Shown here in pieces: positions 1 to 64,000 of a stretch of DNA of 64,000 nucleotides (positions are counted from its first letter, which is position 1; every line of letters starts with the position of its first letter). This stretch comes from Diacronema lutheri (lineage: Eukaryota > Haptophyta > Pavlovophyceae > Pavlovales > Pavlovaceae): positions 108,093 through 172,092 of the forward strand of contig JAGTXO010000067.1 in NCBI GenBank assembly GCA_019448385.1, read 5' to 3'. The notes under the pieces were generated by a model. The model searched no databases. It was given only the letters and a program-made list of their open reading frames with translations, and had not been told where the DNA came from. The translations under genes and the position numbers were made by a program.

Positions 1-770
1 CGCGACGTGACGGGCGTCGACGAGCGCTTCGGCGGCAAGACGTTGCTGCTCGCCGGCGACTTTTGCCAGTGCTTGCCGGTGGTGCGGCGCGGCTCGCGCG
101 CGCAGATCGTGCGCTCCTGCCTCGAGTACTCGGCATCGTGGCAGCACGATCGGCCGTACGCCTTGGTCGAGAACTCTCGCGCCTCGAACGCGGCGCGCGA
201 CACGGGCGACGCGCTCGGCGCGGGCGAGTGGGCGAAGCTGCCGCGCAGCCTCGGCGACGGCGCCTTTCCCGCGGCGGTGCCGCCTGCGGGGGCCATGCCC
301 GGCGCATTCCCGCTCGATCCCGTGCAGCTGCCCGAGGCGTCTCGGCCTACCCGGCGGAGCTCGTAGCCACTCGCCTCCTCTCGCTCGGCGAGGGGCTGTG
401 CAGCGGCACGCGGCTGGTCGTGCGCGGCGTGCGCGCCGGCGGCCGGCTGCTCGAGTGCGCGCGACCCGGCGCGGCCGCCGGGCGCGACAGCACCGTGCTC
501 ATCGCGCGCATCGGCCACCACTCGCCCGACGAGGGCACGTTCGCGTTTGCATGGCTGCACCGCCAGTTCCCGGTGCGGCCGGCGTAACAAGGCGCAGGGT
601 CAAGCGCTCGGGTGCGCGGGCGTGTGGCTCGCCGAGCCGTGCTTCACGCACGGCCAGCTCTACGTGGCCGCTTCGCGCGTCGGGCACGCGTCGCGCATCC
701 GCTTTGCGCTTGGCCCGGACCCTGTGACGCGCACCGTCGTCTTCAAAGAGGTGCTCCGCGCGGTCAGCGG
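1..770 (+). pseudogene. Pif1-family helicase, C-terminal fragment, frameshifted
   Basis: Pif1 helicases are superfamily 1B 5'-3' DNA helicases, and many eukaryotic copies belong to Helitron-type elements. Three pieces are seen. The first frame from base 7 carries FGGKTLLLAGDFCQCLPVV, the Pif1 motif around the conserved GDFxQ. A second frame at about 335-587 carries LGEGLCSGTRLVV and HRQFPVRPA. The first frame then resumes at about 590 with KAQGQALGCAGVWL and HGQLYVAASRV, the C-terminal helicase motif. The order is correct for Pif1, but the frame changes twice and about 100 residues seem to be missing between the first two pieces. The Walker A part would lie left of the window. After about 770 the frame runs into Ala/Gly/Arg low complexity. 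It is read as a decayed gene; introns could explain one frame change but not the missing core. Confidence 0.75.
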
Positions 771-2474
771 TGGCGAGGCGGCGGCGGCGGCGGCGGCGTT
801 CGCCGCGGCCGCCGTCGCCGCCGCGCGCGAATGCGCGGCGGCGGCGCGCGGTGGCGGCGGGCGCGGCGGGCGCGGCTCGGACGGCGCGCGCGGCGCCGGC
901 GGCGGGCGGCGCGCTGGCGGCGGGCGCGACGCCGGCGCGCGGTGCTGCCCAGCACCCGCCGGCGCGACGCCCGCCGCGCCGCTCGCGGCCGACGCGCAGC
1001 CGGCGGGTGCTCGCCAACACCGCGCGCCGCGCGACTGGCCCGCGTACCTGCGCGCCCTTCTAGGGCGCGCAGGGCGGCGCCAATGCGGCCGGCAAGCAGG
1101 GGCCTCAAGCCGGCGCGCTGCCCGACGCCGCGTGGGTCGCCGCCGCGCGCGTGCCGTCGGCGCTGCCGCCGTCCGGCGTCGCGCTCGCGCCGCTGCCGCA
1201 ACCTCAGCCGCCGCCGCCGCCGCCGCCTGCCGGCAAGCAGGGCAAGCGCGCAGCGGCGGCGACGGCGGTGCGCGGCCCGGCGAGCAAGCGGTAGCGGTGC
1301 CGCCGAGCCGGGGGCGGGCTCCGTGGGCGACGCGGCTTGGCCCGCCACTCGCACCACTCGCGCCGGGCGCGCACAACGCGCCGTGGTCCGCTGCGTGGCC
1401 GAGCGAAAATGCGGTCCTGGCTGCGGGGCGGATCCGACACGCCATGCGGGAGAGGCCGTACAGCGCGTGAGCTTGGGCCCGTGATTTATTACTCATGGAT
1501 TTATTACTCATGCCATGGCGTCGCGCCACGATTACGCCCGTGGCCCCGGCCGCCAGCCTCGCGCCGCTACGCCGTGTCGTCGCGGCCGGCGCACACAGCG
1601 AACTGTGTGTCCGCGGCACATGCCCGGCTGCTCGCGAGCTGCAAGCTTGCCGAACTGCTCGCGCTAAAATGGCGCGTTGCGGGCGTGCCCGCGCACCGCG
1701 CGTATGTTCCGCGCGTTCCAGGCGCGCCGCGCCGCGCGCCGAAGCGGCGCGCGGCGCACGTGCGGCCGCGAGCCGAAGAGGGGCCGGCGCGACCGGCCGC
1801 GAGGCAGACGCAGACGCTCGGCGTGCCGGTCGACGCGTCGTCCAAATCCGCGTCGGGCGGATGCGCGCCTAGGCCGGCGCTGCGTGCAATCGGCGCGGGT
1901 CGCCGCCGCATGACGAAGCATGCTTCCATCCGGTGCTCGGCCACGCGCTCGGGCGTAACGTTCGCGCCTGTTCGGCCGAGGCGCACTCGCCGTCCCCTCG
2001 CGCCGGCAATGCGCGTGCGTGCCAGCACGCCGGCAGCGGAGGATGCCACGGCAGCGGCGAGCGGGTCCCCGCCGGTGTGCCGCTCGGCGCCCCGTCACGC
2101 GCAACGCGCGCGCCGCCCGCTGAACGCGCACAATTGCCTGGGCAAGATCGTCCCGCGCTCACGCCGCCGTCGCATCGTTCCATGCATGGCGCCCGGCTCG
2201 TCCGTACCGCTTTCGGGCAGTGCCGCGACGCCCTTTTTCAAAGGCGGGTGCCGCGCTGATTCGTCATCGGCCACCATCCATCTGGCCCTCTAAAGCCGGT
2301 TTGCGCGTGGGCGCCCGTCCGGTGCGAGAAGCGGCTCGCGTCCTCGCGCGGGGCGCCTCCGCGCCAGGCGCCCGGCGCGCGCTCGTCTTGCCGCGCCACC
2401 ACGCTGATCTGCGCCCAACCCTCGCTCGCCTATTCCCCCGTCGTTTCTGCTGCGTAGCCCGCAACAGCGCGCGC
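771..2474. other. No recognisable gene; decayed or low-complexity DNA
   Basis: Frames here are long only because of base composition and give Arg/Ala-rich translations with no motif I recognise. One AT-rich island stands out: a 15-bp unit (GATTTATTACTCATG) occurs twice in tandem at 1483-1512. It probably marks a junction between older elements, but this is a guess. Confidence 0.5.
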
Positions 2475-3443
2475 ATGACGCGTGCACGGCGCAGCGCCTG
2501 GAGCAACTTCCGAGTCGTCGGCCGGCAGCCTGTGGGGGGCGCGTTCATCGGCCCGATGTGGCCGGTGAGAGTGCCCGACGTGCCGCGTGGTGAGCGCCTG
2601 CACGGCTCGCCGGGTTCGGCGCGTTCCCAGTCGGCCTCTCTCCGACCCGCCGTAAACCTTGCGTGCGCACCCCGCACACCCGGCGCTGCGCGGCGCGGCG
2701 CAGGCGTGAAAAACGAGGGCAACGCGTGCTACGTGAACGCCCTCGCGCAATCGCTCGTCGCCTTGAACGTGCTCCGTCCGATGCCCCGCTCCGCTTCGCG
2801 CCGTGCGGGAAGAGTCGAGAAGGCGCTTTTTCGGGACTTTGGCACGCTGCTCGAGGACACCGAGGCGCCGGCACAGCTGTGTCTTGTGTCCGTCGTCGAC
2901 GTCATCTTGGGCCGTGGCACGCGAGGGACGCAGCAGGACGCTGCTGAGTTCTTCCAGATGCTACTCGGCCGAGTGCCCGGGCTCGCTGCTGCCTTCGAAG
3001 ACGACAGACGCGTAGTGCTCGAGCCGATCGCTGTGGCCTCGAGCGAGCGCGGTGAGGGCATCGCCATCCTCGTCAGCATTGGCGGCGATGCGGCGCGCAC
3101 GCTCGCACACGCTCTGGGGGGCGTCGCTGGGCCGCCGCAGGGTGGCAGCCCGGACGCGTGCCGCTCGGACGTGCTCATGCCAGCCAGCATTGCCGTCGAG
3201 GTGCCGCGCACGACGCGCGGCAATGGCTCGCAGTGCAAGAACAAGCACGCGTTCGTGTGCGCGCCGCGGCTGCTACTCGGCGGGCGCGACTACCTCCTCG
3301 TCGCCGCCGTCGTGCACTTGGGCGAGGAGTCGACGAGCGGGCACCTTGTCGCCATCGTGCTCCGCAACGGGGCTTGGTTTCTGTGCGACGACGACAACGT
3401 GCGGCGGCGCGCACGGCCGCTTGGCGCCGCGACCGGCGGTTGA
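2475..3443 (+). CDS. Ubiquitin-specific-protease-like cysteine peptidase (C19-like)
   Basis: The predicted 322-residue protein has both boxes of ubiquitin-specific proteases. The Cys box is VKNEGNACYVNALAQSL with the nucleophile at residue 85 (codon 2727-2729). The His box is HLGEESTSGHLVAIV with the general base at residue 290 (codon 3342-3344), followed by GAWFLCDDDNV, matching the family pattern in which an aromatic and acidic residues follow the His. Spacing of about 205 residues suits a compact USP core. Residues 1-80 are unlike any domain I know, and ATG 2475 is simply the first in frame. A fitting USP tail (QMHNLSQSDALAWASGASML at about 3541-3600) lies in another frame just downstream, so this copy has a frameshift or unrecognised intron near 3400-3500. 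It lies between a broken Pif1 and the giant Fanzor gene, so it may belong to a mobile element. Confidence 0.65.
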   Translation: MTRARRSAWSNFRVVGRQPVGGAFIGPMWPVRVPDVPRGERLHGSPGSARSQSASLRPAVNLACAPRTPGAARRGAGVKNEGNACYVNALAQSLVALNVLRPMPRSASRRAGRVEKALFRDFGTLLEDTEAPAQLCLVSVVDVILGRGTRGTQQDAAEFFQMLLGRVPGLAAAFEDDRRVVLEPIAVASSERGEGIAILVSIGGDAARTLAHALGGVAGPPQGGSPDACRSDVLMPASIAVEVPRTTRGNGSQCKNKHAFVCAPRLLLGGRDYLLVAAVVHLGEESTSGHLVAIVLRNGAWFLCDDDNVRRRARPLGAATGG

Positions 3444-4352
3444 TCGCAGCCGCAGCCGCCCCGTCCTCCCGCGCGGCACGCGCGCGTGGCCTGAAAGCTC
3501 GCGCCGCGCGCCTGCCGCACGCACGCGCGTTGCCCGCGCAGATGCACAACTTGTCTCAGTCCGACGCGCTGGCGTGGGCAAGTGGTGCGAGCATGCTCTT
3601 CTACAGCCGGCTCGACGCGGAACCGTTGGACCCGGCGCTGGGCTCAGCGTCACCGCCGTCGGCCGCATCGCCTGCGTGGCCGAGCTCGGCGCCCGACGCG
3701 CCGACCCTGTCGGCAGCCTGGTCGCGGGTGCGGCAGATGGCAGCGGTGCCAACAGATGCGACGATCGGCATCGCGGAGACGGCTGCAGACACCTCTGCGG
3801 CGGCGATCGGCCCAGCTGCGTGCGAGGCCCGCCAAGTTGTCTCCGCGACGCGCGCATTGCCAATGGCGGTGAGTGCCTCGCACGCGCACGCCGTCCGCTG
3901 TCCACAGCGTGGCGCCCGGCGCTTGCGTTCGCGCCAGGTAAAGTTTGCGCGTATAGCGTGCAGCACCCTCACGCATCCCCTACGCCTCCCGCCCGCCCGA
4001 CCTCTTGCCCGCCGGCCGCGCGCAGGACCAGCGCACGCCAATTGTTGGGCGCGGCCAAATCTGGGCATGCGCAAATTTTGAGCCGGCAGCGGAGGGCGGG
4101 GATGCGCAGCACAACTGGCGCAAGCGCACGTGGTGCCCGCAGCACGAGCAGCGCGAGCAGCGCGAGCAGCGCGAGCAGCGCGAGCAGCGCGAGCAGCGCG
4201 AGCAGCGCGAGCAGCGCGAGCAGCGCGTGCAGCGCGTGCAGCGCGAGCAGCGCGAGCAGCGCGAGCAGCCCTGGCAGCCAGCGCGGCCAGGCCTCGGCGC
4301 GGGCGCTGGCGTTCGGCCCGCTGCTCTGCCGCCGAGCCATCCGCGCGCCAGC
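3444..4352. other. Frame-broken USP tail and 5' region of the giant element gene
   Basis: The first about 200 bases encode, in a shifted frame, the terminal USP motif ending in MLFYSRLD. Beyond about 3640 no conserved protein is seen. The giant frame that follows is open from 4005, but its first codon there is TTG, and bases 4141-4268 are a microsatellite, so the stretch before 4353 is more likely 5' non-coding or a missed 5' exon. Confidence 0.45.
4141..4268 (+). repeat. 9-bp microsatellite (GCGAGCAGC)n
   Basis: About 14 near-perfect tandem copies of GCGAGCAGC, two of them with GTG in place of GAG. In the frame of the downstream gene it would read Glu-Gln-Arg repeats. It lies before the first in-frame ATG (4353), so translation is doubtful. 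Confidence 0.9.
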
Positions 4353-7318
4353 ATGCGCGCGAGCAACCGCTTCGAGCCGCTCTTGTTGGCCGAGGCGGAC
4401 GTGCCCGCCACCGAGCCCGCCGCCGCCCAGCCCGCCGCCCAGCCCGCCGCCGAGCCCGCCGCCAAGCCAGCCGCTGCCAAGCCCACCGCCGAGCCCGCCG
4501 CCCAGTCCACGGCCCAGCCTCCCACCGTGCCTGACGCCAAGCCAGCCGACCAGCCCGCCGTCAAATGCGCTGCCGCCAAGCGCGCTGACGACCGCATTGC
4601 TGCCGCTGAGGTAGGCGCCGTCGCCGCCACGCTTGCCGCCGCCACCGAGCCTGGCGGCGTTGCCGAGCTCGCCGCCGCCGCCGACGAGGGCTGCAGGGCG
4701 CGTGCCGACGCGCTCGCCAAGCGCGAGACCCGCCGCGCGCTCCACCGCGAGCAGCTTTTTCGCGAGGACAAGCGCGCGGCCGGCCGCCTGATCGAGCAGT
4801 GCGCGCTGGGCTCTGCGGACGATGCAGCGCGCGCGCGCGCCCTGCTCGAGCGCGTCAAGGCGCGTGGCCACGCGCTGCCTCCGCACCTGCTGCGGTCGCT
4901 GCGCGACCTCGCGTCGCCGCGGCTCGCGCTCGCCGCTGAGGCGGCGGGCGTGCTCGCCGCGTCCGAGATGGGCGAGGCGGACGCACCTGCGGAGGCGCGC
5001 GCGCTACTCATGCACGCCGAGGCCGTGGGCGCCCACCTGCCCGCGCACACAGAGCTCGCGCTGCGCCGCGCCTGCATCCCCACCGCCGAGCAGGCGGAGC
5101 TGCTCGCGACTGCGCGCGAGCTGCTCGCGCCGCGCGACCCCGAAGGCTCGGTGGCTCCGGCGGGCGCGCGTGCCGAGTGCGACGGCGCCGCGCTCGGCAC
5201 TCGCGCGCGCGAGCTCCTCTCGCGACTCGACGAGGCGCACCTCGACGTGCAGCCCTGCATTGCGCGGCAACTGCGCCGGCTCGCCGCCACCGAGCCAGAC
5301 GCAAGTTCGAGCGCTGCGCTCGCCGCCACGCCCGGCACCGCCGGTCGCGCGGCCGCCGAGCCGCGGCGCGCGTGGCGCCCGCGCGGGTGGCGTCTCGCGG
5401 TAGGCGCAAAGGGTGCGCGCGCGCGCGCGCGCGCCGCGGCTGCTCCGCTCGACACGGCGCCGCCCGCGGCGGCCGGCGCCGTCCCGCCGCTCGAGCCGCA
5501 GCCCGAGCGCCGTGCAGCCGACGCCGCGGCCGCCGCAGCGGCGCCGGCGGCCGGCGACGACGGCGTGGCACGCGCGCTCGCAGCCGCAGCGCGCGGCGAC
5601 GGCCTCGACGGCGTCGATGGCGCCGACGACCTCGTTTGCGCGCCGTGCGACCGAGGCTGCGCGCACGCACGCGACGGCGGCTGCTGCGAGCCTGCCGCGC
5701 GCAGCTCGCCCGACCAGTGCCCGCGCGCACCGCCGCGGCGCGCACGGCGGGCGGCAAAGCGCGCGCGCGACCGGCTGCGGAGATCAATCGACAGGTCAGA
5801 GCGGGCTGTCGGCCGCCGATTGCGTGGCGGCGACGCGCGCCGCGAGCGCAAGCGCAGGTGCGCGACGGGCGGCCAGCACGCACCGCAGCCGCTCCGCCGC
5901 GCGAGTCGCAGCCCGCCGTCGCGCACCGATCGGCCCTCGGCCGAGCATGCCGCCGAGCCTGCCGCCGAGCCCGACAGCCCCCACCGCCGCCCGTGTGCCG
6001 GTGCCGCCGTCGCCGTCGCCACTGTCCGGTGCGCCGTCGGCATCTTCGCGAGTGTCGTCGCCGCCTCTGCCGTCCGGGCCGCCATTGCTCCGGCCGCTCG
6101 CCCGTCTGCAGCCACCGCCTTTTGGCTCGTCGCCGTGTGCTCGGCCGCCGCATGGGCCGCCTTCGCCTCCGCCGCCCGCCCGACCGCCGCCTTGGCCGCG
6201 CCGCAGCCTGCCACGCAATCGTCGGCCGCCGAGCCCACCGCCGCCGCGCCAGCCCCCGCCCAGCCCGCCGCTGCCGAGCCAGCCGCTGCCCAGCCCGCCG
6301 CGGCCGAGCCCGCCGTGGCGCAGCGCGACGTCCAGTCCGCCGCCCCGGCGCTGCTCGCGTGGGCGGGCGACGCGGCTGCGCTCCGGCTGGCCGATGCCGC
6401 CGCGCGCGCCGGCATCCCGCAGGCAGAGGTGGACTGCATTGCGGGCGGCGACATGCTCGCCTCCACTGTGGACGCTTGCTGCGAGGTCGTGCTGCGCGTG
6501 CACGGGCAGGCCGGCGAAGGGCGCGTCTGCCACGTACCGCTTGCCGCTCAGCCCGCGGTGTTCCAGGACGGCGCCGAGCGCGCCGCGCTGCTGCACCGCC
6601 TGCACAGCGAGGCGACGACGCAGGCGGTCATCGGCATGTGGAGCCCGCCGGGCGGGCGCGGCGGTGCGGGCAGTGACGATGGCACGCCGCCCGCCTCCGG
6701 CCATTTCACCGCGTTGCGCCTCGTGCGCGTCGCGCGCGCGGGCGAGCATCGCTACGACGCGGTGCTTGTCGACACGCTCGCGTCGCCGAGCAGGCAGGCG
6801 CTCAAGCGTGCCAGGTCGATAACCGCCACGCTGCACGCGGCGGGCCTCGACGTCTTGCCCGTGCGCCGCGCGCGGCTGCTCGACAACGCGGCGCAGCGTG
6901 GCGCGACGTGCGGCCTCGCCGTGGTGGGCGCGCTCAACGACGCCGCGCTCGCTGCGGCGGGCGGTGCATCCGCGCCGCGCACGTTCAGCGTGGCGGACAT
7001 GTACGCTGTTGGCGAGCACCTCCGCGTCGCGTTGACTGGCGCGGTCAGCGGGCGTGCGCCGAGCGGCGCCTGCGCCGGGGCGGGCGCGGTGCGCGGCGGG
7101 GGCAGCCGCGATCGCGCTGCCGAAGCGCCGCGGCAGACGCGCGGCGCCAAGGCCGCCGCAGACGCCGCCGCCGCTGCCGCCGTTCCGCCGCCGCCGCCAC
7201 CTCCGCCGCCCGCGCTGGGCGCCGCCGCCGCCACCACCACCGCCGCTGCCGCTGCTGCCGCCGCCGTGGCCGCGCCGCCACCGCCGCCACCGCCGCCGCG
7301 TGCCGGCGACGAGGGCGA

Positions 7319-7366
<48 letters not shown>

Positions 7367-10300
7367 GCGCACGTTCTTGAAGCTCGCGCCCAGGGCGCGC
7401 GCGGCCGCCTCGGCGCGCGAGGCGTTGCGCGCCGCGTGTGCGCGCGCGGACGCGGCGGCGTCGTCACACGCGTCGGCGCCGCACGCGCCCGCCGATGCGC
7501 GACGCCGGCGGCGCGCGGGCGCAGGCGAGCTGGCGCTCGCGGCTGCGCGCGCGCTCGCCTCGACGGAGCACGGCGATTTGACGGACGACGCGCTCGAGGC
7601 CGCCGTCGAGCAGGAGCTGGGCGACGAGCGCGGCCAACTGCTGCTGTGCACGCGGGGCGCAGCGGCGCAAAGGCCCGCGCTTTGCCGGCTCCTGAAGCAC
7701 GCGTGCGCGTCGGCGCGCGCGGCGAAGCGCGCGCAATTCACGGTGTTCGTCGTGCGCGCGGCCACGCGCGGCGAGCGGGGGGGCGCCGCCGCGAGGCGCG
7801 TGGACTCGGTGGTCGAGCTGTCGTGCGCGCTGCACGAGAAGGCGGGCGCGCTCGGCGGCCTCCAGAGCGTCTGTGTGCGTGGCTTTGCCCTCGAGCGCCG
7901 CCGGACACTCGACGCTGGCGCCGAGGCCGGCGCGTCCGCCATCGGCCAGGACGAGCAGGTCGAGGCAGAGGCGGGCGAGGCGTGCGTCGCCGGCGTGACG
8001 ATGGCCAAGCAGCTGCGTCAGTTTGCCGAGCAAGCTGCCCGCGACGACGTGCTCTTCCGCGTCGCCGTGTCCGAGGCCGACGCCCACGCCCGGCTGGCGC
8101 GCGTTGCGGGTGACGATGTCGGCGCGTACAGCGTCGTGCTCGCAGTCGCCGGGCTCGTCTGGCTGGCCAAGGCCGACGAGGTTGCGCCGGCGGCCGCCCA
8201 GTCCGCCGCCGCGCCGCCCGCCGCCCCGCCTGCTGCCGCCACGTCCGCCGACGCCGAGCGCGACGCCTCGCCTTCCGACCGCCTGCGCGCGCTGACGCTC
8301 GCCGTGCGAGTCGCGCTCGCGCGCGGCGTGCTGCGCCACCTCCTCGCCGACGCGTCGCCGGGCGCGTCCGCGACCGCTGGCGGTAGTTGCGCGACGCCCG
8401 TCGACGCGGCCGCGTCCGACGCCGCGCCGCCCGCCACGGGCGTCGTGACGAGTGGCGTCGCGGCGGGCGCTGTGGCGGCCGCACCGGCTGCTGCGGGCGG
8501 TGCGACGGCGGGTGCATCGCCCATCACGCGGCCGGCGAAGCGCGCGCGGCGCACGCTCACCGCCGCTCCAGCCGCCTCGGCCGTTGCGGCCGCTGGAGGC
8601 GCACGCGCGGGCGCACGCGGCGCGGCCGGCGCGCCTCGCGCGCGCGCCGCGCGCGCGCCGGCCGAGTACGTCTGGCTTGCCATCGCGCGCCGGATGCTGG
8701 CGGCGCGACACGCGGCGGCCGCGGGCGGCGACTTTGTCGCGTCGTGCGTCGCCGCGATGCAGGCCGAGTACGGCGACGGCTGTGCCGTCGTCGTCGGCGA
8801 CGCGCCTGGTGACGCCTTGGTCGAGGCTGCGGCGGCGGCGCTGCTCGAGGGCAAGCACGCGGCGGTGAGCCTCGGCTGCGTCGACCGGCCGGCGGTGCTC
8901 GTCGTGCAGCGCGCCGTGGACGCGCCCACGTCGCGCGTGCACGGGTGGTGCGCGCACGCGGCGGGCGCCGCCGAGTTTGACGAGGGCGCCGCGCACGGCG
9001 TGTTCAACGCGATCGTCGAGCGCGCGTGGGCGCTGCGTCCGGACCCGGCCGACGGCAGCCCGCCGCCCACGCGCACGTGGGAGGTCGAGCGCATCGCTGA
9101 CGACGCGCCCGACCAGGCGGGCGTGGCCGCGCTGCGCGTGCTCTACGCGCTCGTCGCGGCGCACGGCCGCTACCGCTCGGCCGCCGCGCTCTTTGGCGCG
9201 CTCGCGCAGCTGCACGCGCCCGACGCCGCCGGCGCGCGCGCGGAGGTCGTCGCGGCGGCGTGCGCGGTGCCGCACGGCGCGCGGCCGGGCGCCGCGCCGG
9301 CGGCCGCGCGGGACGACGCGAGGGAGCGCGCATGGGAGGGCGCTCAGATCGCCGCGCTCGCCGTCGGCGCGGACGCTGCGCGCAGGCGTGTCGCGCCCGT
9401 GCGCGCGCTCGTCGACGCGCTCGGCACGCCACCGACCTCGGCGATCACGGGCGGGCCGGCGGTGCGGCTCGCGGGCGCGGGCGACGGCGGCCACGGTGCA
9501 CGGTGGGTGGGCGGGCAGGCGGCGACGCCCGCCGAGCAGCTGCCGAGGGAGCTGCTGCGCGCCTACCACGAGGCGGTGCTGTGCGTCACGCCCGGCAGCC
9601 TCCAGCTCGGCCCGGCGGCGCTCGACGCGGTCACGCGGCCGCGCGAAAACGACACGCTGGAAGGCCTCCTCGCGCGCGTCAGCTGGCAGTGCGGCGCGAG
9701 GGCGAGCACGTGCGCCATGCTCGCCACGTTTTCCGAGCAGGCGGGCACCGGCTCGCGCGTCGCGCTCAAGGCCCTCCGCACGAGCTCCGACCTGGCCGGG
9801 CTGACGGCGGCTGCGGTCGGGCAGCAGGCGCCGCAGACGCCGCCGCCGCCGCTGCTCGTGATGCTCGGCCGCTGCCCCAGCCCGCTCGTCGGCGGCGGCC
9901 TCTTCCCGCCCGACCGCGCGACGGGCGAGCCGGCGGTGCACGCGGCGACGTCCGAGCTCGCCGTCGAGCTGCTGCGCGACGCGCGCGCGCTGGCCGGCAC
10001 GGACGGGCGGCTCGTCGTGCTGTGCCTCGAGGCGTCCAACCCGCTCTGGTTCTGCCCCAAGGTGCGCGAGCTCGAGCTGCCGCGGACGCGGTCGGACGGC
10101 GTGCGCGCGTCCGGCTGCACCTGCCCTGCGACGTGCAGCGATGCGCGCGGCGCGGCGGGTGGCGCTGCCCGCGGCGCATCGACGCGGCCGGCGGCGCGCG
10201 CGATCAACAAGGCGGTGCTCGACCACTTCGTCGCGCTTTTCGGCCGCGAGGGCTTCGCGACCTTTGAGTTTGCGGGCGGCGGCGAGGCGAGCTGGCTGTG

Positions 10301-13300
10301 CGACAGCGCGGCCGGCAAGACGACCGTCGCGGCGTGCGCGTCGCTCCCGCCGCGCATGGGCGATGGGCAGCTGGCCATCCGGCGGCACACGCTCGGCACG
10401 GGCGCCGACGCGCCGGCGCACGCCGTCGTCTCGCTCCGCGTCGCGCACGTGAGCCACGCCATCCGCCGCGCGGCGGACGACGGCGGCGCGCGCGCCGAGC
10501 GGATGGCGCGCGCCGCGCGCGCGTTTTGCGATGTGGCGGCCGCGCTGCGCGTCGACGCGATCCTGGCGGAGGTGCCCGAGGACCGCCCGACGGGCACGCC
10601 CTTCCTTGGCGGGCTGCTCGAGTTTTGGAACAAACGCCACGGGAGCTCGACGGCGCCAGCCACGCTCGCGCTCGGAGACGTGCGCGAGGTGGCCAAGCGG
10701 ACGGCCGACGCAGCGGCCGGCCGAGCGGACGAGGTCCCTGCGGCTGGCCGTCCGCAGGTCGCGGCGCGCGCGTGCGCTGGCGCGATTGGCGGCGGCGCGG
10801 GCGCGGCGGGCGCCTCGGACGCTGCGCCCCGTGCACTGGCGGGCGCGTCGGGTGCGCGCACGGACGGCGGCCCTGCCGACGCACCGCGCCAGCTGGAGAG
10901 CCGCTACGGCGAGGCGAGCAAGCTCGACCTACCCCAAGATTCCACTACGGGCTGCGTCCTCGACGCTCGCGAGGCCCAGGACCGCGCGCGCGTGCCTGCT
11001 GCGCCCGACGGCACAGCGCTGCGCCGCGTGCTCGACGCCGTCGGCGCGGGCGCGCCCGCGCAGCGCAGCCCGCGCTGGCACGACGAGCGATGGGAGGAGG
11101 TCACGGGCAGCAAGGTTGGCGACGTCGTGAACGACAACGCCGGCGTCGCGCACGAGACGCTCACCGACGAGTACGTGCACCGGCGGCGGCGCGAGGTGCG
11201 GACCAAGGCGACGACCGCGGGCATCCTCGGCGAGGCCGTCGCGCTGCGCAAGCTGGCGGCCGCGTACGGCATCACCGTCGTGTGCAACCTGCCGATGGTG
11301 CGTGCGGACCCGCACGACAAGAGCGCGCCGTTCGCCTTCTCGCCGGACGGGCTCGCCATCCTCCCCGAAGACAACGAGCAGGTCCTCGTCGAGGTGAAGA
11401 CGCTCACCAAGGCGGACGCCAAGGCGCACGAGGACGGGCCGCCGCAGCCGCACCGCGATCAGCTGCAGCTCGGCATGCACGTCCTCGGCGTGCGCAAAGC
11501 GCTCTACGTGCAGTACCTCAGGCACGAGGACCGGATCGTCGTGCACGTCGTGACGCGCGGCGTCGGCTGGCTTGCATTCGCGCAGCCGAGGGTGCAGGCC
11601 TTCTGGGCGCGCGTCGTCGAGCGGCGCGCGCGGCTCGAGCGCGCGCGCGCCGACCACCCGGCTGCGAGCCGGCGGCACCGGCGGCAGCAGACGCCGGCCG
11701 GGCCGCCGCTCGTGCTCGCGCTGGACGGGCGCATCCCCGCCGCGCGCGCCGCCGCGCTGCACGCCGTCGCGCACGGCACCGCGAGCGCGGCGGCGGTGGC
11801 GGCGACGGCGGCGACGGGCGACGCGACGGCGTTGCAAGACGCGATCGCGGCGCTGCGCGCGCCCGTCGGCAATGCGGCGATCGACAGCGCAGCGCGTGCG
11901 GAGCGCGCGGCCGTCGAGCGGGCGATCGCGTACCTCGGGCAGCCGGCAGGCGACGCCGCCGCCCGCGGCACGGCCGAGGCGGCCGAGGAGGAGAGGACGG
12001 TCGACGCCGACATCTGCGCGTTGCTGCACCAGCTCGGCGCGAGCGTGGCGCACGTGCACGTCGAGGACGCGGATTGCGTCACGCGTGAGCACTGGGGCGG
12101 GGCGGTGCTCGCTGCAGCGGGCGACCCGTCGAGCGCCCCCGCCATTTCGAGCGTCATCGTCGCGCACATCGTGCGGCTCGCCGGCTTTGGCGTCGAGCTC
12201 CCGCAGTCGATTCGCGTCGCCCCCAGCACGGCCGACTGGCACGAGGGCTGGCTCGACGTGCAGTGCGTGCTGCTGCGCACGCGCCGGCGCGGGCGGCGCG
12301 ACGACGACTTTGTGGCCGTCGTCAGGCGCGGTGGGCGCTGGTTTGCGTGCGAGCCCGGCCGCGCGCGGCGGCTGCAGTGGCGGTCGGTCCTGCGCCGCGC
12401 GCGCGGCGGCGTCGACGGGACCGGCGAGGAGGCGTTCGCGGTCGTCTACGTGCGGCGCGGCGACGCGGCCGGCGACGCGGCTGGCGACGCGCAGGCCGAA
12501 CGGGCGCGCGGCGGGCGCGCGCGCAGGCGCACGCGCGGCGGCACGCGCAAGCGCAAGCGCGGCGCCTCCGCCGGGCTCGAGGCGGCCGCGCCCGCCGGCG
12601 CGCCGGCGGGCGCTGCTCACCGCCCGCCCGCCAGGCGTGCCACGGTCGCCGCGCGCACCACGCGCTCTGTGACCGACGCGCGGCACTCGGCGCCTGCCGC
12701 CACGGTTGCACCTGTCTTCGACTGGCGCGCCGGCCGCCCGCCCCCTGCCGCCGCCGCCGCCGCCAAGCGCGGCCAGGCGCTCGAGCCGGGGCAGTTCGCG
12801 CGGCCGCGTGGGCGCGCGCCATGGGGCAAGGTCTGGGACAGAGTCTCGGGTGCGTGGGCGGACAAGCCGACTGGTGCTGCCGTCGCCGCCGCGCCGCCGC
12901 CGCTGCCGCCCGCCGCCGCGCCGCCGCCCGCCGCCGCGCCGCCGCCCACCGCCGCGCCGCCGCCCGCCGCCGCGCCGCCGCCCGCCGTCGCGCCGCCGCC
13001 CGCCGCCGCGCCGCCGCCGCCGCCGCCACCGGCGGCGCTCGGCCGCCGGCAGCACGTCGGCGCGGGCGGCAGCGCGGCGGGCCGGCGGCTCGCGGCCATC
13101 GCACGGCGGCAGCGCGGCGTGCGCGCGCCGCCGCCCGCCGCGCGCTTCCTCGCCACGCTGCCGCCACCGCCACGCGACGGCCTCGCGCGCACGAGCAAGC
13201 AGGCGCGCGCGAGGCGCAACGCGGACGGACGGCCGGCGCACGCGCGCGCGGCCAACGCGCGCGCCTTCTACCGCGGCGTGGAGCTCGGCGTGCACGCGAC

Positions 13301-16300
13301 GCGCGCCATCGTCGACGCGCGCCACGCCGACCTGCCGCAGGCCGTCTTCGTGGCGGAGGCGCGGGCGATCGTCGCGCGCTCCGCCGGCGGCGGCGCGCTG
13401 CTCGCGCCGGACGACGTGCGCGACCTGTGCGACGCGCAGACGGACGCCGATCGCGCTGCGATCTGGGCGTCGGTGGGCGCGCACGAGGCGACGCGCATCT
13501 TCGCGCTCGTCACGCGCAACGCGAGCTTGGCGGGCGCGGCGCTGCTCGTGCTGCACACGCCGGCGGGCGCGCCGGCGCGCGCGCTCGGGCTCGTGGCGAC
13601 GCGCTCGCGCGCGCCGTCGACGGGCGCGCCGCGCGACGCGCACAGGGCGCTGGTGCAGCGGTTGGACGTGCTGATGGACGCGATCGCCGCGGCGCGAGGC
13701 GCGTCGCCGCTCGAGCTCGAGCTCGCGCTCGCGCCCGAGCCGCAGAGCGCGTGCAACGCGCGTGCGGCCGCGCTGCTCTGCCTGCAGGCCGTCGCGGACG
13801 CGAGCGGCCGTCCCGCCGCTGAGGACGCGCTGGCCGCGCTCGACGACGCGCGCGGCATCGACCGGCACTGCCACGCCGTCCGGCAGCAGATCGAGGCGAA
13901 GCTCGCGTGGCGGCGCGCCGACGGCGCCGTCGGCGTTGACGGCGCCGACGGCGCGCCCGCGCTCGCGCCTGCCGCCGCACCGCCGGCGTGCGCGCCGGCG
14001 CACGCTGCCGGCGAGGCGGCGGTCGACCAGGCGATCGTCACGCGGGTGCGCGACGCGCTGCGCGCGTGGGCGACGACTGGCACCGCGCCCAGCGCGGCGG
14101 TGCTCGACGACGCCTGCGCCGCGTACACGGCCCGCGCACGCGCGCGCAAGGACGCGCGCACGGCGCTGGGCCCGACGCGCGCGGCCGAGCTGCTCGCCGC
14201 GGCCGCGCGCGGCGGAGCCGACGGGGCGGATGCCGCGCGCGCGCTGCTCGGCGGCACGCCGCGCCTGCTCGTCGTGCTCCTCTGCGTGCCCGTCGCCGCG
14301 CCGTCCGGCGAGCCGCCGCGCCCGGTCGGGCTGCTCGTCGCCGACCGGCCGACGGACGACTCGCGCCCGGCCGCGCTCGTGCGCTACGACTTTGCGCCGC
14401 TCGACGCGGACGTGGCCGTCGCGGTCGGCGCGCATGCCGTCGCGCTGGCCAGTGCGATCTGGCCGCTGCTCGCGGCCGAGGGGGAGCCGCGGCCATCGCC
14501 CGTCGTGCGCTCGCAGCCGCGCGGCGGCGACGATGGCGCGCGTGCGCTCGCAACGTTCGCGTGCCTCGACGCGCTGATGACCGCCAGCGTCGGCGCGCAC
14601 GGCCTCGCGGGCGGCGCGGGCATGCTGCCCGCGCTGGTCGCGCGAGGCGCCGCGGCCGCCCAGCGCGAGCGGCAGCTGCGCGCGGCCGCCGAGAGGCTGG
14701 GCGGCACGGTCGCTGGGTGGCCGGACACGGGCGCGAGCGCGGCGGGCGCGAGCGTCGACGAGGAGGCGCGCACGTACGAGGTCGAGGCGGTCGTCGACGA
14801 GCGCCGCAAGGCGGGCAAGAAGGTGACGTTCCAGTTCCGGATCAGGTGGCGGGGCTACGACGAGAGCGCCGACACGTGGGAGCCTGAGGCCAACGTGAGC
14901 AGGGACCTCGTCGCCCAGTTCCGCAAGACGCGCGACGAGCAGAAGCGGCGCGCGGGCGTATCGGGCAGCGGCAGCGGCGGCGCGGGCGCGGCGTCGGCAT
15001 TGGCGTCGGCGCCGCTTCGCGCGCACGGCGAGTCGGGCGCCGCGGGCAAGCGCGCCGCGGCGGGTGCCGCCGCGAGCGCGCGCGACGCCGCGGGCGCGCG
15101 CGCGCCGAGCGTTCCCCGCGCGCGCGGCGTCGAGCGCGCGCGCGTGGACGAGCCCGCTGCGCCGAGCGCGCGCGCCGCCGGCGGCGCGACGGCGCGCACG
15201 CGCGTCAGCGTGCTCCCGGGCTTCGTGGTCAAGCGCTCGACGCTCAACGCGGGGCCGCAGGCGGTGACGGCGCAGCCCGGTGCGCGGAAGGAGCTGCGGC
15301 GCATCGCGGCGGCCGTGCACAGGCTCACGACACAGGCGTACCGCGTCATCAACAAGGTGGTGCGCGACGAGGCTGCGGTGGCGAGCGCGCAGGCCGTCGG
15401 CGCGGCGTCGGGCGGCCCGTCGACCAGCGTGCACACGTCGACCACGATGGACAAGGGAACCGTCCGTGCGATCTTCTCGGCCATCGGCTGGCACAAGGAC
15501 GAGAGCACGTACGGTGCAGCGCCCCGAGGCAAGCCCGCCGAGCAAGCCGCCGCGCAGACCAAGGCGGCGACGGCGCGCGCCGTCGGCGAGATGGCCGAGG
15601 GCGTCCAGCCCGTCTGCGCGGTGGGCCTCACGGAGATCCTCGAGGCGGAGGCGACGCAGGTGTCCACCGCGTGCCTGATGCATCCATCGCGCGTCGTGAA
15701 CGGGCTGCTCCGCGACGTCGTCCGCGCGGCAGTCGAGCGCGACGAGGCGCTCGTCGCGCTGCCCGAGATGCAGCGAAACGCGCGCGTGCGCGAGCTGTGC
15801 GAGCGGCTGCTGCGCGGCGACGTGGAGGGCGCGCGCGTCGGCTGCCCCGCCGCGCTCGACCGCCACCTGCCCGACATGGTCCTCCACAAGATCGACTACA
15901 AGTGCACGCCCACGAAAAGGTGGAACTACGACCGGCACACGACGCGCTACTTCCTCGTGCAGATCCGCACCCTGCAGCACGTGGCCGAGGGGCAGGCGCT
16001 GCTCTGCCGGCTCGCGCACATCCACACGCAGCTGACCGGACGGCCGCCGCGGTACAATGTGGCGCCGCTGCGCACGCACAATGTGCGCGCGAGGCGTGGC
16101 TGCCGCTGCCGCCGCCGAGCGCCCAAGCGCGCGCGCCGCCGCCGTGCGCGCCGCCCCGCGGCCAGGTTGGTCACGCGCCCGCGCGCTCGCGCGCCGCGCG
16201 CTGCGCGCAGGTGCCGCGCAACGTGCGCCTCGCCGCGAGCGCCATCTGGGTGACGCTTTCGGATGACGAGCGCAAGGAGCTGCGCGCGCGGCTCAAGGCG

Positions 16301-17935
16301 CTGGACCTGCGCGACCACGATGGCGAGCCGATCAAGTGGACAGGCACAAACGGCAACACCCCGCCGATGTCGGACGTGCGCGTCAGGTACGCGGTCTTTG
16401 CGACGCGCTTCGACATCTCCAACCGCGTCTTCGACTACGCCGGGCGCGAGCGGCCGCCGGCCGATCTGCCGTGGCACGCGCGGCGCTCGTGGGTTGGCCT
16501 CGCGCCGCTGCCGCGCGTGCCGCTCCCGGGCCGGCAGCCCGTCAAGTCGGTGGTGACAGATGGCGTCGCCGTGCACGCCGTCGGGACCGTCCTCGTGCCG
16601 AAGGCGCAGGCGCCGGCCGGCGGCTCGGGCGTCCTGCACCGCTGGCGCCGGCCGGACGGGCGCATCGCCGTCGCGCTCGGCTCCGAGCTGCGGCGGGCGA
16701 TCGACGTCGAGGCGGCGGTCGTCGTCGCGGCCGACCCGAACATGGGCAACATCACCACCTACTCTGCGCACGTCGGGCGGGCGGCCGTCTGGCGGCAGTT
16801 CACGCAGCGCGCGCGCGCGCGCGCCGCGGGCTTTGCGCGCGAGACGGCCAAGACCAACGCGGCGCGGCGGCGCGTGCGCACCGACGGGCGCGGCGAGGAG
16901 TTCAGCGTGGAGGCGGACGAGGCGCGGCTTGGCGAGGCGCACAGCGCCAAGGTGCTCGACGCGGGCAAATACATCGCCTTCCACCGCGAGAGCGCGCGGG
17001 TGCGCGAGCGCGCCGCCGAGCACGTGTACGACGCGCCGGCGCGCCGGAAGGAGCGCTGGCGGCGCGACAGCGGCGGGCGGTCCAACGCGGCGCGCGTCGC
17101 CGAGGCGCTCATCGCGGCGCACTGTGTCGACGGCGTGACGCGCGACCGGCTGCTCGTGTGCGTGGGCAAGTGGCTGCGCGACCACAAGGGCGCGCAGCCC
17201 AAGGGCGCGCCGCCCGCCTTCCAGGTGGGGCTGCTGCGCGAGCTGCGGCGGCGCGGCGTCGCGGCCGTCTTCGTGCCCGAGCCGTACACGTCGATGCACT
17301 GCTCGATGCCGCGGCTCGCCAAGGGCGGCAGGCTGCAGCGCTGCGGCGCGGAGCTCGCGCAGAACCCGCGCCTGCCCGTGGCAAAGGGCGGCACGCGCAC
17401 GGTGCACGCGCTCGTCATCTGCCCGGCGTGCAACGGCGGCAAGAAGCCCGTGCACCGCGACTACAACGCCGCGCGCAACATCTTCTACGACGTGCACGAC
17501 ATGGCGGCGCACGCGGCCGGGCGCGACACCACGTCGACGCCTGAGCGCTTTGCCCTCGTGCTCGCCTGGTGGGCGCGCGGCGAGGTGTGGGAGCGTGAGG
17601 AGCGCATGGTGCACGGCGAGGGCGACGACTGCGACGACGAGTGCGACGGCGACGACGAGGGCGACGACGAGGGCGACGACGACGACGACGACGATGGCAG
17701 CGGCGACGGCGGCGGCGGCGAGGGCGACGGCGACGGCGACGGCGACGGAGGCGGCGGCGGCGACGACGACGATGACGGCGGGGGAGGCGGCGGCGGCGAC
17801 GGCGGTGGCGACGACGGCGGCGGGCGCGGCGGCGGTGGCGGCGGCGGCTCTCGCGCCCGCACCCCCGCCCGCGGAGCTGCCAGCGCCAGTGCCGGCGGCG
17901 GCAGCGCGCGCGGGCCGAAGCGCGGCCGGCGTTGA
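4353..17935 (+). CDS. Giant fusion: Ulp1-like protease, YqaJ-type nuclease, chromodomain and Fanzor RNA-guided nuclease (copy 1)
   Basis: Two exons, 4353-16082 and 16211-17935, joined by a 128-bp phase-0 GT-AG intron, give about 4,484 residues. Domains in order are as follows. Residues 1-780 are an Ala/Pro/Glu-rich unique region. About 667-870 is a Ulp1/C48-like peptidase with candidate His784, Asp807, Gln848 and Cys853. Poly-Pro/Ala linkers follow. About 2240-2425 is a YqaJ/lambda-exonuclease fold with Asp2332 (SPDGL), Glu2347-x-Lys2349 (VEVKT) and Gln2370 (DQLQLG). About 3471-3530 is a chromodomain with cage residues Tyr3475, Trp3499 and Trp3509. About 3620-4390 is Fanzor, with RuvC Asp4085 (AADPNMGN), Glu4267 (VPEPYTS) and Asp4327 (HRDYNAARN). 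The tail is Asp/Gly-rich. Fanzors are eukaryotic TnpB homologues that cut DNA guided by an omega RNA; the fusion's role in element spread is inference. ATG 4353 is the first in frame; an upstream exon is possible. Confidence 0.75.
6351..6960 (+). other. Ulp1/C48-like cysteine peptidase domain (in the giant gene, copy 1)
   Basis: The catalytic order His-Asp-Gln-Cys is that of clan CE peptidases (Ulp1, adenain). GHFTALRLVR gives the His, YDAVLVDTL the Asp about 23 residues later, and AQRGATCGLAVVGAL the Gln and Cys about 40 residues further on. The same four residues are kept in copy 2 (GHFTALRLVR, VLVDTL, AQRGATCGLAIVGAL), although surrounding residues differ. Ulp1-like peptidases are known passengers of several eukaryotic DNA transposons. 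The assignment rests on motif order only. Confidence 0.5.
7315..7372 (+). repeat. GCC trinucleotide run (poly-Ala), copy 1
   Basis: An almost pure GCC run coding for about 17 Ala residues. In copy 2 the matching run (57760-57836) is clearly longer and includes a Thr interruption. This is a length polymorphism between otherwise similar arms. Confidence 0.9.
11071..11625 (+). other. YqaJ/lambda-exonuclease-like PD-(D/E)XK nuclease domain (copy 1)
   Basis: The domain starts with SPRWHDERWEEVTGSKVGDV, as in YqaJ proteins, which commonly begin with a short W-rich helix. It continues with a helix carrying GILGEAVALRKLA, then FSPDGLAIL, VLVEVKTL, HRDQLQLGMHVLG and ALYVQYL. The Asp, Glu-x-Lys and Gln are the catalytic set of this fold. 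Copy 2 keeps all of them despite substitutions nearby. YqaJ nucleases act in viral or phage-like recombination as 5'-3' exonucleases; here a role in processing element DNA ends is inference. Confidence 0.8.
12895..13034 (+). repeat. Pro/Ala-coding repeat (APPPAA units), copy 1
   Basis: Tandem 18-bp units coding PPPAAA with Val and Thr variants form a linker between the second half of the YqaJ region and the next globular part. Copy 2 (about 52120-52245) has fewer units, so the linker length varies between copies. Confidence 0.85.
14764..14950 (+). other. Chromodomain (copy 1)
   Basis: The run TYEVEAVVDERRK, FRIRWRGYDESADTWEPE and NVSRDLVAQF is a textbook chromodomain of about 60 residues. 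All three aromatic-cage positions that bind methyl-lysine are present (Tyr, Trp, Trp). Copy 2 is the same except Ser for Arg in the last helix (NVSSDLV). Chromodomains on retrotransposon integrases steer insertion to marked chromatin; the same could apply here. Confidence 0.9.
16083..16210 (+). other. 128-bp phase-0 intron inside the Fanzor domain (copy 1)
   Basis: The donor follows the codon for Asn in APLRTHN (AAT|GTGCGC) and the acceptor is GCGCAG|GTGCCG. Splicing gives APLRTHN-VPRNVRL, matching the Fanzor pattern PLRT...VP. Without splicing the frame ends in an Arg-rich tail at 16253. The equivalent intron is at 48938-49065 in copy 2, with the same length and phase. Confidence 0.85.
17626..17932 (+). 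repeat. Asp/Gly-coding low-complexity tail of the Fanzor protein, copy 1
   Basis: GAC/GGC-rich repeats code for an acidic Asp-rich stretch and then a Gly-rich stretch, ending in a short basic motif (GPKRGRR). Copy 2 is two codons shorter in a Gly-Asp run. The basic end may be a nuclear localisation signal. Confidence 0.8.
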
Positions 17936-18341
17936 CGCACGGCCGAGCCGCGCAGCGGTCGACGCTTTGCGGGCTCTGCCCAGGTCGCGCGCGGCTGGCG
18001 ACGCGTGCCGCGCGCGGCACGACCGTGCACGCCGCCACCCGTGGCCGAGCGCGCCGCACCAGCCGGCCCGCTCCAACCGCCGTGCGGATCACGGACGCTC
18101 GCTACGGCTCGTCGGCGCGCGTCACCTGCGCCGGCGGCCACGGCGCCGTCTGCTCCGGCCTCGTCGCGAGCAGCCCGACCGCTGCTCGCCGCCCGCACGC
18201 CGCCGCAGCAACGCTGCGCGTCGTGCTCCCCCGCTCGCCAAACGCGAAGAGCTCCCTCACAAGGACGTCCTTCCGAACGGCCCGCGCTGCACTCGGGGCG
18301 CGATCGTGCCCCTGATCGGATTTGGCTTGACCATCTATACG
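17936..18341 (+). ncRNA. Candidate omega (guide) RNA region and right end, copy 1
   Basis: The about 405 bases from the Fanzor stop to 18341 have no convincing gene, yet reading them against 46813-47218 (reverse strand) I see no difference. Identity stops abruptly after CCATCTATACG. Fanzor and TnpB guide RNAs are known to be transcribed from the 3' end of the element, overlapping or following the nuclease gene, with the guide taken from flanking DNA beyond the end. On that model the scaffold would lie here and the guide would start at 18342. No RNA structure was computed. Confidence 0.45.
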
Positions 18342-46812: not shown

Positions 46813-47218
46813 CGTATAGATGGTCAAGCCAAATCCGATCAGGGGCACGATCGCGCCCCGAGTGCAGCGCGGGCCGTTCGGAAGGACGTCCTTGTGAGGG
46901 AGCTCTTCGCGTTTGGCGAGCGGGGGAGCACGACGCGCAGCGTTGCTGCGGCGGCGTGCGGGCGGCGAGCAGCGGTCGGGCTGCTCGCGACGAGGCCGGA
47001 GCAGACGGCGCCGTGGCCGCCGGCGCAGGTGACGCGCGCCGACGAGCCGTAGCGAGCGTCCGTGATCCGCACGGCGGTTGGAGCGGGCCGGCTGGTGCGG
47101 CGCGCTCGGCCACGGGTGGCGGCGTGCACGGTCGTGCCGCGCGCGGCACGCGTCGCCAGCCGCGCGCGACCTGGGCAGAGCCCGCAAAGCGTCGACCGCT
47201 GCGCGGCTCGGCCGTGCG
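46813..47218 (-). ncRNA. Candidate omega (guide) RNA region and right end, copy 2
   Basis: No difference from 17936-18341 was found by eye, while the coding arm has substitutions. If the guide is read from beyond the element end, copy 2 would carry a different guide (GGGCCCCTCC... in element orientation) from copy 1 (ATGACCGAGC...). Structure not computed. Confidence 0.45.
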
Positions 47219-56200: not shown

Positions 56201-57759
56201 TCCACGGCGCGCTGCACGACGAGCACCGCCGGCCGGTCGACGCAGCCGAGGCTCACCGCCGCGTGCTTGCCCTCGAGCAGCGCCGCCGCCGCAGCCTCGA
56301 CCAAGGCGTCATCAGGCGCGTCGCCGACGACGACGGCACAGCCGTCGCCGTACTCGGCCTGCATCGCGGCGACGCACGACGCGACAAAGTCGCCGCCCGC
56401 GGCCGCCGCGTGTCGCGCCGCCAGCATCCGGCGCGCGATGGCAAGCCAGACGTACTCGGCCGGCGCGCGCGCGGCGCGCGCGCGAGGCGCGCCGGCCGCG
56501 CCGCGTGCGCCCGCGCGTGCGCCTCCAGCGGCCGCAACGGCCGAGGCGGCTGGAGCGGCGGTGAGCGTGCGCCGCGCGCGCTTCGCCGGCCGCGTGATGG
56601 GCGATGCACCCGCCATCGCACCGCCCGCAGCAGCCGGTGCGGCCGCCACAGCGCCCGCCGCAACGCCACTCGTCACGACGCCCGTGGCGGGCGGCGCGGC
56701 GTCGGACGCGGCCGCCTCGACGGGCGTCGCGCAACTACCGCCAGCGGTCGCGGACGCGCCCGGCGACGCGTCGGCGAGGAGGTGGCGCAGCACGCCGCGC
56801 GCTAGCGCGACTCGCACGGCGAGCGTCAGCGCGCGCAGGCGGTCGGAAGGCGAGGCGTCGCGCTCGGCGTCGGCGGACGTGGCGGCAGCAGGCGGGGCGG
56901 CGGGCGGCACGGCGGCGGGCTGGGCGGCCGCCGGCGCAACCTCGTCGGCCTTGGCCAGCCAGACGAGCCCGGCGACTGCGAGCACGACGCTGTACGCGCC
57001 GACATCGTCACCCGCAACGCGCGCCAGCCGGGCGTGGGCGTCGGCCTCGGACACGGCGACGTGGAAGAGCACGTCGTCGCGGGCAGCTTGCTCGGCAAAC
57101 TGACGCAGCTGCTTGGCCATCGTCACGCCGGCGACGCACGCCTCGCCCGCCTCTGCCTCGACCTGCTCGTCCTGGCCGATGGCGGACGCGCCGGCCTCGG
57201 CGCCAGCGTCGAGTGTCCGGCGGCGCTCGAGGGCGAAGCCACGCACACAGACGCGCTGGAGGCCGCCGAGCGCGCCCGCCTTCTCGTGCAGCGCGCACGA
57301 CAGCTCGACCACCGAGTCCACGCGCCTCGCGGCGGCGCCCCCCCGCTCGCCGCGCGTGGCCGCGCGCACGACGAACACCGTGAATTGCGCGCGCTTCGCC
57401 GCGCGCGCCGACGCGCACGCGTGCTTCAGGAGCCGGCAAAGCGCGGGCCTTTGCGCCGCTGCGCCCCGCGTGCACAGCAGCAGTTGGCCGCGCTCGTCGC
57501 CCAGCTCCTGCTCGACGGCGGCCTCGAGCGCGTCGTCCGTCAAATCGCCGTGCTCCGTCGAGGCGAGCGCGCGCGCAGCCGCGAGCGCCAGCTCGCCTGC
57601 GCCCGCGCGCCGCCGGCGGCGCGCACCGGCGGGCGCGTGCGGCGCCGACGCGTGTGACGACGCCGCCGCGTCCGCGCGCGCACACGCGGCGCGCAACGCC
57701 TCACGCGCCGAGGCGGCCGCGCGCGCCCTGGGCGCGAGCTTCAAGAACGTGCGCGCGGC

Positions 57760-57835
<76 letters not shown>

Positions 57836-63883: not shown

Positions 63884-64000
63884 GAGCGCCGGCTCGAGCG
63901 CCGCGAGCGCGCGCGCCTCGCGCGCGTCGCTCGCGCCGAGGCGCGGCGGCACGCGCGCGGCTCCGCGCGGCGCGGTGCCTCGGAAGCGTGGGTCAGCGTG

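Follow-up and report, generated by a model that had tools for sequence, protein, structure and literature searches.

The window analysed here, a stretch of 64,000 nucleotides from the haptophyte Diacronema lutheri, carries on its forward strand a giant gene whose predicted product joins a Fanzor1-type RuvC nuclease to a YqaJ nuclease and a chromodomain. This gene occupies the right-hand side of a giant mobile element that is present in high copy number, with a length of 21.6 kb at this locus and of about 31 kb elsewhere in the genome. From its sequence and domain matches, the number of its copies, their mosaic similarity and its ends, which show neither terminal inverted repeats (TIRs) nor exact target site duplications (TSDs), the element is interpreted, with modest confidence, as a recently amplified DNA transposon of D. 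lutheri. Its main product, of 4,484 amino acids, would cut DNA by means of its Fanzor module and resect the ends by means of its YqaJ domain, and copying would be assisted by recombination. The original prediction had described the Fanzor, the YqaJ nuclease, the chromodomain and a Ulp1-like protease as one protein encoded by 4353..17935. That the first three lie in one long gene is upheld, but the rest of the multi-copy element of 21.6-31 kb, including a Pif1 helicase and a ubiquitin-specific-protease (USP)-type domain, had been left out.

Structure of the giant gene

Exon 1 (4353..16082, + strand) begins at the first Met of an open frame of 4,098 amino acids (3957-16250, +), whereas exon 2 (16211..17932, +) belongs to a stop-free downstream frame of 1,015 amino acids (14888-17932, +) and encodes the C-terminal portion of a predicted Fanzor1-type RuvC nuclease, including a C4 zinc ribbon and an acidic, Gly-rich tail. 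Between both exons, a GT...AG intron of 128 nt in phase 0 (16083..16210, +) is deduced from the sequence, in particular from the switch of third-position GC between frames and from the repetition of the spacing in other copies; given its splicing, 4353-16082 and 16211-17932 would be translated into a single protein of 4,484 amino acids. Third-position GC is high from about 3930 to 16080 in the first frame and from about 16210 to 17730 in the second, and the coding signal runs unbroken, in a single frame, from the chromodomain to the intron. The single spliced frame that had been proposed agrees with these open frames, with the phase switch and with the GT-AG interval. Between 6346 and 16082 the giant frame has 0 stops, versus 25 and 11 in the other plus frames and 2, 18 and 35 in the minus frames; the contrast is weak in the N-terminal stretch (3957-6345), where 0 stops are found in the giant frame versus 3 and 5 (+) and 3, 4 and 1 (-).

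The spacing of 128 nt between the exon frames also occurs in the second copy of the window and in the nine other copies examined (9/9). In these nine copies the frame located 5' of the intron is open over all the available DNA, for 2,211-2,448 amino acids in four of them and for 245-310 amino acids in five. Because of this, and because the minus-strand copy of the window encodes the frame as well, the giant frame is confirmed as more than a chance opening. Exon 2 ends at 574-575 amino acids in 8/9 of these copies; in the ninth (L011), no in-frame stop was found beyond the four motifs. No relatives of the giant protein of about 2,250-7,170 amino acids were found among 1,644 candidates scored.

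It could also be argued that two proteins are encoded: a long frame with protease, YqaJ and chromodomain, and a Fanzor produced from an internal start or from its own transcript, the fusion being apparent through stop-poor, GC-rich DNA. The region is indeed poor in stops, as the minus frame with only 2 of them over 6346-16082 illustrates, and the predicted starts of the database relatives P0002-P0005 ([MV]PR) coincide with the first residues of exon 2, although these are apparently gene-caller choices on contigs of 1.5-2.8 kb. This reading is judged improbable: the coding signal continues in one frame up to the intron, the frame 5' of the intron is open in all nine copies, and a start at exon 2 would presumably cost the Fanzor module its N-terminal part.

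The C-terminal Fanzor module

The module extends approximately over residues 3617-4373 (numbered from the first Met) and includes D4085, E4267, C4274, C4288, C4314, C4317 and D4327. The TNB zinc ribbon model PF07282 recognises exon 2 above its cut-off (E 1.8e-6, 28.4 bits, cut-off 26.3), and four of the six rows of the exon 2 alignment (A2) match this family at E values up to 1. The Fanzor1 signature, as given in the available text of PMC3627910, is D-X(125-275)-[TS][TS]XX-C4 zinc finger-X(5-50)-RD; exon 2 contains it at D175, T360-S361, C364, C378, C404, C407 and R416-D417, with 184 residues from D to TS, four Cys, and RD after 8 residues. The best PDB match of the exon 2 profile is Cas12f1 (E 0.012).

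Protein searches in which 8,000 candidates were scored each time gave 2, and then 5, relatives of exon 2. One of them is 98-99% identical, and the other four are diverged, at 39-47% in these searches; for the full-length P0002 and P0003 the identity is given as 45-51%. These four sit on the short contigs mentioned above, bear the source tags lgn, ncbi, jgi and lgn, and are presumably metagenomic. The RuvC residues D/E/D (the first D, the E within the motif E-[PA]-YT[ST] and the last D) are kept in P0002 and P0003; in P0004 and P0005, which are truncated, the first D alone is visible. The zinc ribbon match, the signature and the kept D/E/D support exon 2 as a predicted Fanzor1-type RuvC nuclease, in agreement with the TnpB-like nuclease originally proposed.

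A second Fanzor family exists in D. lutheri (loci L001-L007 and L098, C9:378400-387900, minus strand), of ordinary size judging by its sequence and with the motifs DPGKN, DESYTSQDC and DRDFNAARN. Exon 2 is homologous to it (profile comparison, E 1.1e-8 over 113 columns), and this second Fanzor shows a faint match (E 0.23) to the Fanzor of Spizellomyces in the PDB. The L098 DNA upstream of this second Fanzor matches positions 336-1673 of the giant element at 97.7%.

Other domains of the giant protein

The YqaJ or RecE-like exonuclease domain, of the PD-(D/E)XK type, is located at 11052..11627 (+; residues 2234-2425, with D2332, E2347 and K2349) and shows the motifs SPDG, VEVK and QLQ. The PHROG_434 profile (RecE-like exonuclease family) covers 192 residues of the giant protein with E 8.2e-16, whereas the Pfam YqaJ model gives only E 0.015, under its cut-off. 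The chromodomain is located at 14775..14927 (+; residues 3475-3525) and is recognised by PF00385 (E 6.5e-12) and by chromodomains of the PDB (best E 7.6e-9); its Tyr, Trp and Tyr occupy what we take to be the cage positions. Both domains had been called from the letters of the DNA and are borne out by these profiles.

The Ulp1-like (C48, clan CE) protease-like domain (6354..7046, +) had been called on the order His-Asp-Gln-Cys, and the motif is present (H784, D807, Q848 and C853), but Pfam reported no protease model for the region, even at E 10. A structure model built from two sequences was of low confidence (pLDDT 44.9, pTM 0.44), and Foldseek matches of such models can be meaningless, as the tool itself warns; the best clan CE match had E 0.031, and 0 of 391 matches reached E 0.001. 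Ten of the first 20 rows are proteins presumed here to belong to clan CE (HopZ1a, RavZ, SseL, RickCE, OtDUB, XopD and AvrA). A Ulp1-like protease in the giant protein is thus considered plausible but weak. A series of degenerate Ulp1-like domains in tandem was also suspected by eye and found no support in single-sequence comparisons or in Pfam. In the longer version of the element there is an additional frame of 1,346 amino acids (L094:3553-7590), which begins with another H-D-Q-C-like region and has no noteworthy match in Pfam.

Extent and gene content of the element

Comparison with other copies places copy 1 at 1..18341 of the window (+), with its right end at 18341 and its left end 3,269 bp upstream of the window start (C101:104824), where the DNA common with the C71 copy ends and divergence begins; its total length is 21,610 bp. 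Copy 2 (46813..64000, -) corresponds to a longer version and is cut by the contig end at position 64000. Its giant frame runs from 62412 to 48898, with the chromodomain and a weak YqaJ match, and its right end is at 46813. It is 97.6% identical to copy 1 over 12 kb and 99.1% identical to the copy on C50 over the 12.8 kb that reach position 64000. The C50 copy has 10.3 kb in place of 2.4 kb of copy 1, and its length is estimated at about 29 kb from match positions, its left end lying outside the stretch examined. On C1, C6, C26 and C29 the left ends are found at about 31.03-31.05 kb and the right end at most about 15 bases from the first base of the contig; these copies are sized from their ends, the sequence read inside them being the left 10 kb on C29.

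The left part of the element carries a Pif1-like helicase and a frame with a ubiquitin-specific-protease (UCH) domain (2124..3440, +; PF00443, E 7.3e-15, over the cut-off), both of them also present in the 31-kb version. In copy 1 the helicase is split over two frames of L096, which match the PIF1 profile at 5-84 and 104-218, as an intron or a lesion would produce; the end of the second frame (C101:107067-108455) lies at 1..363 of the window (+), which contains profile positions 135-218. Ahead of the helicase of copy 1, at about positions 2000-2500 of the element (before the window), there is a long inverted repeat containing units similar to TGTAGGG, and since the 31-kb version has additional sequence at this place, the helicase gene seems to be rearranged in copy 1. 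The helicase of the 31-kb version carries a 2B domain. A viral-type SSB ahead of it was suspected, and searches gave no support to it. Across the genome at least 150 PIF1 matches were obtained (150 scored of 414 candidates), among which other Pif1 genes may be included.

Neither a Rep nor another transposase was recognised in the frames scanned, the scan being partial for the minus frames of the long-version insert and for the 31-kb version. Regarding the Helitron Rep-like family PF14214, these frames gave no match, and the six-frame search of the genome gave a single one (C63:35738-36019, E 8.3e-23); this C63 gene is a possible source of Rep in trans.

Giant algal viruses also carry YqaJ, Pif1, USP/Ulp1-like and Fanzor genes, and an endogenised fragment of a large DNA virus, in place of a transposon, could account for this set of genes. 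Such an origin is regarded as very unlikely: the copies compared have precise ends in common, no capsid or polymerase domain appears in the element frames scanned, and two scans of viral contigs, which reach close relatives only, gave no relative.

Ends and insertion sites

At the left, 11 of the 12 ends seen begin with [CG]TATATA[CG] followed by GGCGCGG, the exception being C93 (CTCAATA); a sample of 19 stretches gave nine of these ends, and ten stretches, C50 included, fell short of the end. The left flanks of C71, C85, C34 and C101 end at differing points of a similar short sequence, and TATATA is taken for this reason as part of the element. At the right, the two copies of the window, C7 and C85 end in CTATACG, and C3 in CTATACA. 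There are consequently short direct terminal repeats (CTATATACG at the left, CTATACG at the right), and no TIR was seen at the element ends. A left end at 3950 (CGTATAG, the right end inverted) was ruled out, since 20/20 copies continue upstream with the same sequence. No exact TSD of at least 3 bp was seen by eye in 5/5 paired flanks; C29 shows an imperfect 5-of-6 repeat (GTGCAC/GTGCGC), which leaves room for a short TSD there. No empty site for copy 1 was found across the join among the 42 matches listed (40 of 206 candidates scored).

The non-coding right end of copy 1 (17933..18341, +), terminating in ...GACCATCTATACG, is a candidate source of a guide RNA. All the matches to 18100-18341 are 100% identical among 40 scored of 275 candidates; the identical ends of 30 right-end loci do not count as independent, because the loci were chosen by a 100% match spanning the end; the right ends of the window copies, C7, C85 and C3 given above were not selected in this way. 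The predicted RNA folding of the stretch 18060-18341 is unexceptional (z-score -1.35, with 20/200 shuffles folding equally well). Just to the right of the element (18687-19266) lies a tandem repeat of 189 bp in about 3 copies, and a related repeat adjoins a second-family Fanzor copy in L003.

Contigs C1, C6, C12, C26 and C29 begin at most about 15 bases from the right end of the element. A telomeric location was ruled out, because TTAGGG arrays are found at other contig ends and because on C29 the element and TTAGGG occupy opposite ends; these contig starts look, on the same grounds, like assembly breaks.

Relationship with Helitrons and other elements

According to the available text of PMC3627910, the non-autonomous Helitron2 elements CRe-1, 2 and 3 of Chlamydomonas carry Fanzor1, and autonomous Helitron relatives encode RepHel, which combines Rep with a Pif1-type helicase. 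The giant element resembles CRe-1, 2 and 3 in its Fanzor1, in the lack of TIRs and in hairpins near the ends, represented here by a perfect palindrome of 18 bp (positions 48-65 counted from the left end) and by a predicted 7-bp stem, including one G-U pair, near the right end. It differs from them in having a Pif1 helicase with no Rep found, in the sequence of its ends and in the position of the Fanzor within a giant fusion. These similarities, together with the 2B domain of the 31-kb version, the lack of exact TSDs and the Rep-like match on C63, would fit a giant Helitron-like rolling-circle element, with Fanzor, YqaJ and chromatin genes as passengers, a Rep acting in trans or too divergent, and a giant protein that only helps. 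Nevertheless, the element has no Rep match and the C63 match stands alone in the genome search, the ends do not match TC...CTRR, and perfect palindromes with arms of at least 7 are absent from the last 120 bp, so that this explanation is possible but doubtful.

Replitrons (Craig 2023) have 0.9-4 kb, a HUH endonuclease, terminal direct repeats of 5-11 bp and TSDs of 2-8 bp, as stated in the accessible part of PMC10741241. The giant element is like them in having no TIR and short direct terminal repeats, and unlike them in its length of 21.6-31 kb; a HUH domain found no match in Pfam, which may hold no Replitron model. The element is filed neither under Helitrons, no Rep having been found, nor under Replitrons, and it may still work in a Helitron style.

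In IS200/IS605 elements, TnpB is a RuvC nuclease gene placed at the end of the element and oriented toward that end. The RuvC gene of the giant element has a similar placement and direction (a parallel drawn in the text available of PMC10432273), in contrast with the lack of any Y1 transposase found, the eukaryotic host and the giant fusion. ISL2EU transposons, in the sections available of PMC4482050, provide another YqaJ exonuclease in a eukaryotic DNA transposon, but their own features (DDE transposase, TIRs and AT target duplications) were not seen here. Compared with the Fanzor1 of eukaryotic transposons described by Bao and Jurka 2013 (PMC3627910, as far as available), signature and high-copy mobile carrier are alike, whereas here the Fanzor forms the end of a chain of 4,484 amino acids with YqaJ, chromodomain and protease-like domain, in an element of 21.6-31 kb. 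No Fanzor with such a domain architecture was found in the open-access literature searched, as far as its text was available, which is in line with the novelty originally claimed; in the text available of PMC10711439, a term search gave 0 mentions of fusions or haptophytes.

Copy number and history

In the genome searched (43,492,796 bases in 103 contigs), scoring 150 of the 306 candidates for PF07282 yielded 148 matches. By score, 116 of these matches were assigned to the giant-element family, a floor, because the scoring covered only these candidates and the two copies of the window are not included; 108 of the 116 have a frame of at least 574 amino acids, enough for the whole of exon 2. Intact motifs are present at 29/30 right-end loci, the thirtieth being cut by a contig end. 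For the stretch 6500-7100 of the window, 40 of 221 candidates were scored, and identity is 100% (rounded) for 30 of them and 89-97% for the other 10.

Between copy 1 and copy 2, pN/pS is 0.65 overall, falling to 0.50 and 0.42 in two stretches of the N-terminal part that are richest in synonymous change, with values above 1 (1.04, 4.19 and 1.45) in three stretches of 250 codons with few changes; in exon 2 there are 0 synonymous changes and 1 non-synonymous change. At 12346-13345 copy 1 shows 0 differences from C3 and C11 and 19 and 16 from C1 and C7, and at 16346-17345 it shows 0 differences from C1 and C7 and 9 and 12 from C3 and C11. This switching of partners along the element, seen with six copies, points to recombination or gene conversion; a causal role of the Fanzor does not follow from it, and ordinary gene conversion or a transposition burst can likewise produce mosaic, highly identical copies.

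Possible mode of action and implications

Following the interpretation as a recently amplified transposon, the chromodomain would bring the giant protein to chromatin with methylated histones, where the Fanzor, with a guide RNA from the right end of the element, would cut a homologous site. The YqaJ domain would resect the cut ends, repair from the donor copy would then copy or keep the element, and Pif1 would unwind DNA while copying proceeds. The peptidases would strip SUMO or ubiquitin marks involved in silencing or in repair. All these steps are deduced, as are the guide RNA and the splicing, and the model is drawn from the parallels with TnpB/Fanzor (PMC10432273) and with the YqaJ of ISL2EU (PMC4482050), both in the text available; cutting by TnpB serves to retain or copy its IS, and the former paper proposes a similar role for Fanzors located close to HUH transposons. 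The main gap in the transposon reading is the missing transposase, for example a Helitron-like Rep, which would be either provided in trans or too divergent for detection.

A bolder proposal would dispense with a conventional transposase: the element would represent a new class of giant transposons based on a one-protein recombination machine, which unites a chromatin reader, an RNA-guided cut by Fanzor and resection of the RecE type. With the help of Pif1 and de-conjugating proteases, this machine would convert cut homologous sites into element-bearing ones. At present this proposal seems unlikely.

Concerning the host genome, a repeat content of 22.9% has been described for D. lutheri NIVA-4/92, with LTR elements and LINEs forming 32.7% and 3.8% of the masked bases (PMC8379373); in the text available of this genome paper the word 'fanzor' and words in 'transpos-' appear 0 times. 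Judging by its copy number and length, the giant-element family may make up a sizeable share of the unclassified repeats in the genome. Here a Fanzor is joined to a DNA-resecting exonuclease and a chromatin reader, in an element with many near-identical copies. Whether Fanzor cutting drives copying by recombination is directly testable in this culturable alga. For genome engineering, the giant protein would show a case in which nature has coupled an RNA-guided-type cutter with an end-resection enzyme.
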